From: Hesseltinella vesiculosa
Taxonomy: Eukaryota; Mucoromycota; Mucoromycetes; Mucorales; Cunninghamellaceae
Direction of reading: 5' to 3'
Length of the DNA: 64,000 bases
NCBI GenBank assembly: GCA_002104935.1
Contig: MCGT01000013.1
Span: 558,001-622,000 of the forward strand
The position numbers were made by a program, and so were the translations under genes. The notes under the pieces are model-generated. The model did no database searches and had not been told where the DNA came from. It saw only the letters and a list, made by a program, of their open reading frames with translations. Shown here in pieces: positions 34,928 to 39,584 of the stretch (within the stretch, counting starts at the first letter, position 1; each line of letters begins with the position of its first letter).

Positions 34928-35875
34928 GATCAAAAAAAAAAATGAAACTAAAAAGAGTGAAAAAAAAAAAATTGGAAAAATGTCACTGGCGGCGTGCGTA
35001 AGTCGAAATAAAAATTATGGTGTTTCCACGCAAACTGTCGCATTCTAAAAGTCGCATGTCAATCAAAATATTACATGGCCAACACTGAAAAAAAGTGGAG
35101 TACGATCAGAGGGCGTTTTTTTCCTATTCGTGCTCCCAAGATAGTTCTTGGATCACAATGTTTGAATCATTAGTGGTTTTAACCAAGACTATTAGTTAAT
35201 ACAAACGTACACGATGGCTATGATTCAGCTAGTCTGATCACAGAGATTCGAGCAGATATCGGAATGTGAAATTCTGACTTTTCTTTTTTTTCAAGATCAA
35301 TGGATTGACGTAAAACTACGCATGGGTAAATAACGTGTTGAGTGGTGATGATACTAAAAAAAAATAGATCGATTGGTAGAGATCTCCTAGCTAATATTTA
35401 GCAGGTTAGTTTTGATGTGTCTCAAAACTTCAGCTAAAAAATGCCATTTTTTCAGATGACTCCCAGGCGAACTGATCAAATATCAACTTCAAATTCGTCA
35501 AAAATCGATTCACATCAAATTTTGCACATGGAGGGGTAATAATGGTACACACCTCTCAGGCATGGAAGTGATGGGCTAGGGATTGTCGACATGCAATTTA
35601 AGCATAAATTATAAAAATCTCAGGCATATCGAAAGCTCAGGCCTACTGCTTTATCAGTTTGTGTTCCGTGCAACGAATCGCAACGATTATTGCCCAAATA
35701 CAGGATATATAAGTTTTAAATAGTAAAAGAAAATGCTCTTAGGTCAATTTACTAATATTCAACGAATCAAAAATAGAAAGGAAGAATGGGACGCAGTTGC
35801 AGAGTGGGGAAATGGCGGAGTGAAAATATAACCTTTTTTTTGTTTCTTTCTTCTCGTTTTCCTTCATCACGAAAA
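34928..35875. other. AT-rich region left of the Fanzor gene
   Basis: About 950 bp without a supported frame. Its composition is clearly more AT-rich than the flanking genes, with fewer pure homopolymers than other spacers. It should include the VPS72 promoter at its left end. The rest may be element sequence belonging to the Fanzor insertion, with its left end unknown. A short string GGTTAGTTT at about 35403 recurs inverted near 39393, but a 9-base match can be chance. Confidence 0.45.
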
Positions 35876-38800
35876 ATGGCCCGTACCAAGCAGGGTAGAA
35901 AAAGAAGAAAAAATACGCCCGAGGTGGAGTCGGATAGAACTCAGTTAGTGCCAATTGAAGAAGAAGCTGGCCCTTCTACGTCACGTATGACCAAGCATGA
36001 TACATATGAATTGTCTTTTCGATGGCGCCGTTAACTAATCGCTTTTCTCATCAGGCCCTGTCAAGAGACAAAGACGAAACAAAACAAGGAATGTAACAAA
36101 AAGAAGACAGAATGCTGATGAAAAAGCAGCAAAGCGTACGGGGAGAGATGAGCGTAGCCTTGCCATCGATCGACAGCGTCGATCTCGACGACCCTGCCCA
36201 ACTTGTATAAGGAATGGAAACATAGAATCGTCATTGACCCATTCAAGATCATCAAGTCGCCTATGTCCCTACCGCATACCCTCTCAACGTGCACAAGGGA
36301 ACCAATTGCTTGGTGGAAAGAAGACCAAGACACTCACGATAAAGCATGGACTGTGCCCATTATTGAAATCGCTACGCAATGCCGAGAAAGAAATTTTTTT
36401 GGATGGCCTTCAAGCAGTTGTTGATTTTAATCGTCGTGTGTTGATTTGCAGTCACCTGTTTATCCTGGATTACTTCAACTCCCGCCTCACCAATGGCCTG
36501 GATATCCCTCTAGTGTTCCTGGACTATCGGTTTGTCAATGGTGTGTTTCAGCTTGTCATTGGCCGATCTTGGTCGAACAACTCACTCTTTACTGAAGAGG
36601 TCCGTCAACACATTGAAGAATCGTTTGCCACATTTCTGATTCAGCATCCTAATGTCCACTGTCCACTGGTCCCGTCTACTGTGCGAGGGAAACGCCCTAT
36701 TGGCTTTTCCAAGATTTTAACTTCCACGGCCCGCACGTACGCCTCCAGCATGGTGAATCATGTGGTCGAGGGTTTCGACCAAGCCTACATTGGTTATTTG
36801 CAAGCTCGCCTTGCTCGTTCTATTCCAGTAAATAACTCAAAAAAACCTCCACCATTAACAGCTCACCCTTTTTTTTTTTCAATCGGAACTTAATCGCTTT
36901 CAAGTTGGAGCCCTTGCGGATTTCGTGTTTGACACGTGTGCACAAAACCAAGACTTTGAACCAGTTTGGCCGACGATCAATGTTGAAGATTCTATCGACC
37001 ATGCTATGGTGGATGCCAAGGTCGACACTGCTTTGAACGAATTGATAGACGATACTTGGGACAGATGGACACAACTCGCCATTCGTATTGAACAAGAAGG
37101 ACCCTTGCCACAGCAAGACGCGGATGAGGACAACCAAGACGACGAGGACAACCAAGAAGAGGATGACAACCTCTCGGTCAGCACAGCCACAGCCATGTCC
37201 ATCGACACTATCTCAACCCTTGGCATCTCGCGCCTTGATGTTGCTACTGGCCCTTATACCTTGCCTCCGCTAGCTGATCCATCTCTCTCAACTGACAACG
37301 CTATTCGTAGCCAGGCTCCTCCATCTGTGTCTATTACAACGACAACGATCACCCGGTATCCGCACCTGTTTATCAAGATTCTATTTGATGTCTTGTGCAG
37401 CTTGGAGCGCCTAAATGAAGATCAACACACGGCACCAGCGCCACAAGCCTCCGTTCATTGGAATTGGACACATCACCAGCTCTCAGGAATGCATGACTGG
37501 AGTTATCTGAACCATCACCAGCGGTCAAAACTCGTCCGTGGTATATCCAAATCCATCAACAACAACACTCCAGTGGACATTGAACGACTGCCTCGTGTCT
37601 TTTCTCAGCAATCCCGCCAACAAGTGACCACGCTTGTGGCCGAAACGCAACGAGCTCTTGCTGCTGGCACATTCTCATCCGAAGCATACCTTGTGTCACC
37701 AAAAGTGCGTCTTTTCTCGGTCCTTCCCACACCGTCTCTCACCCGAAAATTCATTCAAGTCTCCCACGATTCTCTTGGTGAAATCATGCGCCATTTCGGA
37801 TTAGAACACTACGCCGTACCTCAAGCGATTCGCCCAGTTGCTGGGCAAGTGCATGACAATTTCAAGATCCTGAACTTGAAAAGGATCCATAGTGGGTAAG
37901 TGGGAAACAAAGAGATAAAAAAAAAGGTGAGGGCATTGCCGGAAAAAGATATCTCACTTTTCATTTTCTAGTCGCGGAATCTTCCTCAATCAGCTGTATA
38001 CTGATGGCTATTCCGTTTGTGTTCCATTCAAAAAGATGTCTGGTGCATCGATCGGTCAACCACTTCGACTGACCGACATTAGCCCTGTGGCCATGCAGCA
38101 AATGGACGTTTGGGGTATAGATCCTGGCGTCACCGACATCTTTGTAGCATCAAACTCCTCCGATCCCCGTGCTTACCTCTCCCCAGCGGACCTTCCAGGT
38201 GAACCATTGCTAGCCACACCGCCGAACCCAAGGCATCAGATCCGCCGCTTTTCCAGTGCTGAATATTACGTCAAAGCTGGCTATCGAAAAACCGTCGCAA
38301 ATATCAAAGCCTGGAAGCAGCAGCACGGCATCACTGAAATTGAGTCGTCCTTTGGATCGCCAAAAACAACAGTGCGCCAAAACATCACTGCCTACATCAC
38401 TGAAAAGCTACGCCATTTGGATCGCTTGCTCTTATTTTATGGCCAAGACATTCAGCAGCTCCGTTTCTTGAACTACAGGGGCGCGCAGCTCGTTAACCAC
38501 GACCTGGTCAAGATATTTGTCGACGGTGGTCGCAAGTACGGATCCCATGCCTCCAACTACAACAGCCACGACACATACATGAGCCGGCTAAATGAAGATG
38601 GCAGTTTTAAGAGTCGTCGGCGTCAGCATGCCCATCCCTCCCCTCTTCAGCCAAGGCAATGTCAAAATCAAAACCAACAAAAAAAAAAACTGACTTCTTT
38701 TTTATTCAGCGAGACAAGAAATGGAAAGTGGCGTCCTCTGCCTTTCCAACCATCCACCCAGATACCCCTTCTGTGCATTGGTGATGGAAGATTTGGCAGG

Positions 38801-39181
38801 CGACGCTTCAACAAAAAGCCACTTGGTCTTGCAAACCGCTTCAAGAAAGTAGTTCGATTGGCCCAGCGGCAATTCCCCATTTTGATGGTCGATGCAGACG
38901 AAGCCTTTTCGTCCAAAGTTTGCAGCAAATGTGGGAAGAAGACTTTGGCCAACGTGACGGTGGATGGTGGCGAATCGAAGTTGCATGCAGTGCAATGTTG
39001 CGAAACATGTAGCACTGTGTGGCAACGAGATTGCAACGCCTCCCGAAACATCCATGCGCTCTCCCATTTTGCTGCTCTTGGTGTGAAGCCTCTTGTTTTC
39101 ACCCCCCAAGACCAAGATCAAGCCGACCCTTCCACAACCTCGCCACCAGACGCGCAACCGAACCAACCAACCCCCACTTAA
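35876..39181 (+). CDS. Fanzor (TnpB-like RuvC nuclease, OMEGA family), apparently intact
   Basis: Four exons (35876-35984, 36055-36827, 36862-37895, 37972-39181) sum to a phase-consistent 1041 residues. The N-terminal 90 residues are basic (KQGRKRRKN, KRQRRNKTR, RRQRRSRRP), which suggests nuclear import, with a small CPTC...CPYR cluster. The middle is Fanzor-like: RGIFLNQLYTDGYSVCVPF, then WGIDPGVTDIFVAS with the first RuvC Asp (GAT at 38119). The end has VDADEAFSSKVCSKCGKKT, CCETCSTVWQRDCNASRNI: a four-Cys zinc finger and the last RuvC Asp in WQRDCNASRN. This matches the TnpB/Fanzor domain order; the family cuts DNA guided by an RNA made from the 3' end of the element. The 36828-36861 intron is only 34 nt but is the choice that keeps frame. 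No transposase is nearby. Confidence 0.85.
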
Positions 39182-39300
39182 TCCAGGTATCAAAAACCTG
39201 TACGACGTATAAGCTGTAAGTCAAAAAAAAGCAACTGTGCAGTAATCTGATCAGACTTCGCATCCACTCAGGCAAAATGACCTGTTAGTTCTTTGAACGT
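39040..39300 (+). ncRNA. Candidate guide (omega/fRNA) region at the Fanzor 3' end
   Basis: In TnpB and Fanzor systems the guide RNA overlaps the 3' end of the coding region and runs past it, ending in the guide at the element border. Here the tail after the stop (39181) holds a small hairpin, CAGGT at 39184-39188 pairing with ACCTG at 39196-39200 around a 7-base loop. Nothing else proves transcription. The range is a search window, not a mapped RNA. Confidence 0.2.
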
Positions 39301-39584
39301 CTTGTCTGGCTGTAAGTAGCAAAAAAGAAGATGCCAAATTCAATTTTTCTAAGGGTGAGTGGAAAAAAATAAAAAGATGCCTAGCTTTTGCTAAACTAAC
39401 CACTTCATTTTCCTTTTTCGTAGCTGACTTTTTTTCTTGCTTTGCGACTTTTTTTTTTGGAAACACAGTATGGTTTAATGGATATCATGTATGGTAGAGG
39501 TGGAAGAGGTGGACATGGAAGGTGTCATGAGAATAGGTGGGGTAGAAAACGATGGTGTGATGGAATAGCAGTAGAATTTTTTTT
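39182..39584. other. Spacer right of the Fanzor gene
   Basis: About 400 bp between the Fanzor stop and the convergent stop of the Afi1-like gene. It contains the hairpin noted above, AT-rich DNA and short A/T runs. No supported frame. Confidence 0.45.

Follow-up and report, generated by a model that had tools for sequence, protein, structure and literature searches.

Does the large gene at 35876-39181 in a 64,000-nucleotide stretch of the Hesseltinella vesiculosa genome (Mucorales, Cunninghamellaceae; contig MCGT01000013.1; hereafter the window) encode a working RNA-guided nuclease, and how did it come to lie there? The original prediction, made from the letters of this stretch, described an apparently intact Fanzor gene between VPS72 and an Afi1-like gene. 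Domain matches agree with it on the neighbours: the left one has YL1/VPS72 domains and the right one an Afi1 domain. The family assignment also holds. The intactness of the gene does not. Comparison with other copies in the same genome makes it very probable that the locus is one copy of a non-autonomous DNA transposon with a Fanzor1 gene, and that this copy was inactivated recently. Its nature as a repeated transposon was beyond the reach of a single-sequence reading, and such a reading can make a dead splice site look like an intact gene.

Family assignment and catalytic motifs

The predicted Fanzor identity was borne out by two lines of evidence. The protein matches PF07282 (TNB/OrfB zinc-ribbon) with 37.3 bits against a Pfam cut-off of 26.3, a score obtained on the reading in which intron 4 is kept as coding. 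In addition, a profile built from six relatives (P0001-P0006) finds SpuFz1 (PDB 8gkh) with an E-value of 6.9e-10 over the whole chain; the match consists of two stretches in the correct order, with i-Evalues of 4.3e-6 for the first and 0.84 for the second. A single-sequence search of the PDB gave a best E-value of only 0.19, to the TnpB-like protein L79, and a structure model of P0001 from seven sequences was poor, with a mean pLDDT of 41. A second homologue search (alignment A1) gained only P0007 and P0008.

The catalytic set is present in the TnpB/Fanzor order originally described, running from GIDPG through four cysteines to RDCNASRN. In the numbering of the five-exon protein, the RuvC-I aspartate is D681 of GIDPG (codon 38120-38122), the zinc finger consists of Cys 930, 933, 956 and 959 (CSKC at 930, CETC at 956), and the RuvC-III aspartate is D966 of RDCNASRN (39029-39031). 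The expected place of the canonical RuvC-II glutamate is occupied by GDG (GDGRFG, exon 5), and a relocated glutamate, E923, stands six residues ahead of the first CxxC (E-x6-CxxC; C930). A DPG motif together with a relocated glutamate are marks of Fanzors in the available part of PMC10711439, where the search pattern has 12-18 residues between the CxxC pairs, shorter than the 22 of the window protein. DPG is invariant across the six relatives in alignment A1, and addition of the 416-aa fragment P0008 leaves an alignment with only four invariant columns listed. Because of the PF07282 match, the catalytic set and the six-relative profile match to SpuFz1, assignment of the window protein to the Fanzors, type 1, is well supported at the level of sequence.

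A gene model with five exons

Comparison of copies and the NCBI model of one of them divide the window gene into five exons, not four (Table 1); the protein of this model has 1015 aa. In the NCBI protein P0001 (copy L017, contig C36), the exon 2/3, 3/4 and 4/5 junctions are identical to those of the five-exon model. Because the NCBI model of this sister copy begins about 150 codons downstream of 35876, the start codon at 35876 is less certain. Measured across copies, with L021 left out for its misaligned rows, the introns of the family span 44-90 nt. The earlier model of four exons joined in phase into 1041 residues was not confirmed; it needs a 34-nt intron at 36828-36861 and intron 4 as exon; intron 4 had been read as coding because its 54 nt hold no stop. 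A GT at 38622 was considered as the intron 4 donor and dropped, as the frame fails. The AT-rich island ascribed to the locus is real upstream, where GC is 37.8% at 35001-36000, but does not extend over the gene body, with 45.6-49.7% across 36001-39000. By eye, the 3' untranslated region (39182-39468) holds intron-like GTAAGT/GTGAGT..AG pairs, as does the region downstream of the L051 gene.

Table 1. Features of the Fanzor element and its gene, in window coordinates
Feature	Position	Strand	Remarks
Left TA of target-site duplication	35016..35017	.	
Whole element, Fanzor-carrying, Tc1/mariner-like ends	35018..39468	+	about 4.45 kb; from copies and ends
Left terminal inverted repeat, TGGTGTTTCC	35018..35027	+	
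Junction of 44-nt deletion in window copy	35059..35061	.	from comparison with 11 other loci
Fanzor coding region	35876-39181	+	start 35876 and stop 39181 confirmed
Exon 1	35876..35984	+	start codon uncertain
Intron 1	35985..36054	+	intact, GTATGA..CATCAG
Exon 2	36055..36827	+	
Intron 2	36828..36885	+	CG acceptor at 36884-36885 instead of AG
Branch-point-like TTAAC inside intron 2	36855-36859		read by eye
Exon 3	36886..37895	+	as in the gene model of the family
Intron 3	37896..37971	+	intact, GTAAGT..TTCTAG
Exon 4	37972..38655	+	includes RuvC-I GIDPG, 38114-38128
Intron 4	38656..38709	+	GC donor in window; 54 nt, stop-free
Exon 5	38710..39181	+	GDGRFG, relocated Glu 38900-38902, zinc finger, RuvC-III Asp 39029-39031, stop
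Conserved right end, place of guide-RNA scaffold by SpuFz1 analogy	39400..39468	+	
Right terminal inverted repeat, GGAAACACAG	39459..39468	-	
Right TA of target-site duplication	39469..39470	.	
Putative guide segment	39471..39487	+	conditional on a guide RNA passing the right end as in SpuFz1

Splice-site damage in the window copy

The original statement that no stop or missing motif was found was not confirmed, and the other copies do not support an intact gene. The acceptor of intron 2 is AG in all 13 of the other copies compared and CG in the window; the 13 comprise 12 copies aligned over intron 2 and L027, which was checked apart, and exclude C3:258194-259278 and L021, the latter being without coverage of this acceptor. 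By this comparison, the intron 2 acceptor is lost in the window copy. The donor of the same intron is GTAAGT in 11 of the 12 aligned copies, and GTAAAT in L013 and the window. At intron 4, the donor is GT in 10 of the 12 other aligned copies and AT in L020; L015 and the window have GC. A further loss in the window copy is a deletion of 44 nt near its left end; every one of the 11 other loci compared has this segment.

The next AG downstream of the lost acceptor lies at 36904 and shifts the frame. Retention of intron 2 would yield a predicted 315 residues and use of the 36904 acceptor 337, and RuvC is absent from both. We infer from these alternatives that the product of the window copy is probably a stub of 315-337 aa without RuvC, and that the copy is probably dead. 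The caution in the original prediction that nothing shows activity was justified.

Two readings would keep the gene alive. In the first, the spliceosome uses an in-frame AG at 36861, excising a 34-nt intron and leaving an insertion of eight residues in a functional protein. Such an intron is GT..AG, in frame and stop-free, and by hand arithmetic it yields the 1041 residues originally proposed. It would, however, be shorter than any in the measured family range of 44-90 nt, and its AG directly follows TTAAC, the best branch-point-like motif by eye. It would also make a T run coding, though the length of this run varies among copies, and the NCBI model of the sister copy does without such an intron. 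Splicing of this kind is very unlikely. In the second reading, the copy is intact and CG at the acceptor arose through an error in sequencing or assembly, as a single assembly and a single base decide the matter. Private differences are nevertheless normal in the window copy, with 19 substitutions in exons besides the 44-nt deletion, and the donor of intron 4 likewise departs from the usual sequence, with GC. An error is also very unlikely.

Other copies and selection on the family

The genome has eight other copies that cover the coding region, 97-98% identical, and many partial copies besides. The five-exon frame is open in three of the eight (L015, L016 and L017), and the remaining five carry stops or frameshifts. 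Among the open copies, L015 has a GC donor at intron 4, and L017 is without a left-end match; its protein P0001 reads GKDPG, with Lys replacing Ile beside the RuvC-I aspartate.

The variable sites in nine copies (the window and L010-L017) divide into 72 nonsynonymous and 72 synonymous, a per-site ratio of 0.31 (p 4.9e-12 against neutrality), and the pooled pairwise dN/dS is 0.27. The 19 exon substitutions private to the window, relative to the eight copies, comprise 8 nonsynonymous and 11 synonymous changes (p 0.0013). These counts show purifying selection on the Fanzor family, as far as sequence can. With dN/dS near 0.3, it is probable that selection maintained a working protein in the lineage leading to the window copy until a short time ago. 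Comparison with the more distant L019, L020 and L022 gives a weaker signal (dN/dS of 0.44-0.55), from rows that are partly misaligned. Purifying selection, with dN/dS about 0.2-0.3, would also be expected if the gene, lying between VPS72 and Afi1, had been domesticated by the host, but the transposon ends with their TA duplication, the many dispersed copies and the decay of the window copy make this reading very improbable.

Among the more divergent loci, L019 (C33), L020 (C64) and L022 (C56) form a subfamily of mostly 92-95% identity that stops resembling the window at 38798, right after GDGRFG; a matching zinc-finger and RuvC-III part is therefore unseen in these three. A six-frame search of the whole genome gives 46 PF07282 matches, and exon 4 finds matches of widely differing identity genome-wide, which together point to several Fanzor families in the genome. 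In one of these (L051), RuvC-I and the zinc finger are separated by a long insert of low complexity.

Transposon ends and target-site duplication

The aligned copies begin, on the left, with TA followed by CAGTGTTTCC and finish, on the right, with GGAAACACAG followed by TA; these aligned ends with their TA therefore delimit the element given in Table 1. In the other copies, the left terminal inverted repeat is mostly CAGTGTTTCC or CAGTGTTTTC, and in the window it is TGGTGTTTCC. Read by eye, eight of the nine other loci whose left end can be recognised have TA there, and C11 has AA; this count leaves out C13 and C23, in which no end is visible. The right TA is present in eight of nine other copies, with CT in L014. 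As a 12-base pattern, the end is not commoner in the genome than its reversed control (35 matches against 33), and by eye 15 of the 35 lie where a copy or a right-end match ends. The ends are convincing because they are placed where the alignment between copies stops. Within the 5' region, 35308-35801 is absent from L015 and L016, and most of this segment is also found apart from the gene, at C85:362095-362590.

A candidate transposase

No DDE_3 match lies inside the element (35018-39468) among the matches listed, in a genome that has 164 of them, and because of this the element appears, as far as seen, to be non-autonomous. A Tc1/mariner-like DDE element at C54:18272 (L059) has a left end that resembles that of the window element and is likewise preceded by TA; the two align with a score of 51, and none of 500 shuffles scored above 39. 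It differs from the window element in its cargo, as it encodes a transposase whose halves match HTH families and DDE_3, and no Fanzor is found at the locus among the matches listed. The transposase of this copy holds an in-frame stop, and a right end was looked for and not found. We regard the link between this transposase and the Fanzor element as suggestive.

Two further arrangements of transposase genes were observed. At C5:204259-208963 (L067, L007), a left end like that of C54 and a transposase fragment lie upstream of another Fanzor, seemingly as one element, for which no right end was found with up to two mismatches allowed. Inverted pairs of a Tc1-like transposase gene occur at C1:937916-944687, C27:123255-129770 and C18:180312-189562, and are possibly palindromic elements.

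The right end and a proposed mechanism

The right-end stretch recurs at six further loci, where it is 79-87% identical, and no Fanzor lies within 10 kb of these six among the matches listed. The guide RNA of SpuFz1 consists of a 75-nt right-end scaffold and 14-15 nt of flank, according to the available part of PMC10432273. By analogy, the right end of the window element at about 39400-39468 would supply the scaffold and the adjoining flank the guide. The recurrence at the six loci is in favour of this placement. Against it, predicted folding of the 3' region is not better than that of shuffled sequences (z -0.09 for 39182-39471 and z -1.40 for 39060-39350), and no Rfam family matched it.

In the mechanism we propose, intact copies would encode a large RuvC nuclease guided by an RNA that is read from the right end and runs about 15 nt into the flank. 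The nuclease would cut the empty insertion site, and repair would copy the element back; PMC10432273, as far as its text is available, proposes this as a role of Fanzor proteins. Movement of the element itself would depend on a Tc1/mariner-type DDE transposase made elsewhere. The window copy would be a passive passenger at most, and its right end could still give guide RNA to the proteins of other copies.

Relation to known systems

Fanzors are an established and tested kind of RNA-guided DNA-cutting enzyme. Fanzor1 in TA-flanked Mariner-like elements and Fanzor1 in Mucorales are both already published (PMC3627910, available in part). The Mariner-type Fanzor1 elements described there (Bao and Jurka 2013) resemble the window element in carrying Fanzor1 alone, with Mariner-like ends and TA flanks, and differ from it in coming from other hosts. 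The same portion of that paper includes Fanzors of Rhizopus, Phycomyces and Mucor, and its Mucorales elements ROr-4, PBl-3 and MCi-4 have MuDR-like ends and 9-bp duplications rather than TA; one unclassified Mucorales family is also not made up of TA elements. Hesseltinella is absent from the Fanzor literature among the matches listed, including the available parts of PMC10711439 and PMC10432273.

The best solved relative by profile is SpuFz1 (Fanzor1, 8gkh), from Spizellomyces punctatus. Going by the portion of PMC10432273 at hand, it too belongs to an inverted-repeat element with many full and partial copies, and it too has end-region loci without a Fanzor, termed 'ghosts', to which the right-end matches found here may correspond. 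SpuFz1 is a single ORF in a locus of roughly 2.1 kb, in contrast to the five exons in 4.45 kb of the window element, and its guide RNA has been sequenced, whereas that of the window element is inferred. Other Fanzors, for example P0003 and P0005 of H. vesiculosa and P0006 of Cunninghamella blakesleeana, have the domain order and catalytic residues of the window protein at 32-40% identity to P0001, and P0003 and P0005 carry a long low-complexity insert from RuvC-I to the zinc finger. A single fungal genome offers several families of Fanzor, open and broken copies that are nearly identical, loci that match the right end alone, and a candidate transposase whose element has a similar end. Such a genome would make the use of a Fanzor to its transposon testable within one strain.

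A 76-bp segment beyond the right end

Past the right end, window positions 39488-39563 form a 76-bp segment identical to C35:70170-70245, its sole other match in a search of the genome. The segment begins 17 bases beyond the right-end TA, and SpuFz1, according to a source available in part, cuts the non-target strand after bases 16-17 and the target strand after bases 20-21. Were the segment filler from repair after a Fanzor cut at the empty site, it would be a trace that natural RNA-guided cutting left in a fungal genome, an origin that we consider very unlikely. The right flanks of nine other copies, used as queries in a search in which 40 of 258 candidates were scored, gave no match starting 14-21 bases past an end among the 57 matches listed, and no clean empty site. 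Because these nine copies gave no second case, the placement of the 76-bp segment may well be chance. One flank match (C56:512443) begins at base 13; it belongs to a repeat, and in the other members of that repeat the match runs from about base 1. The right flanks of L010 and L012 are the ends of other repeats.
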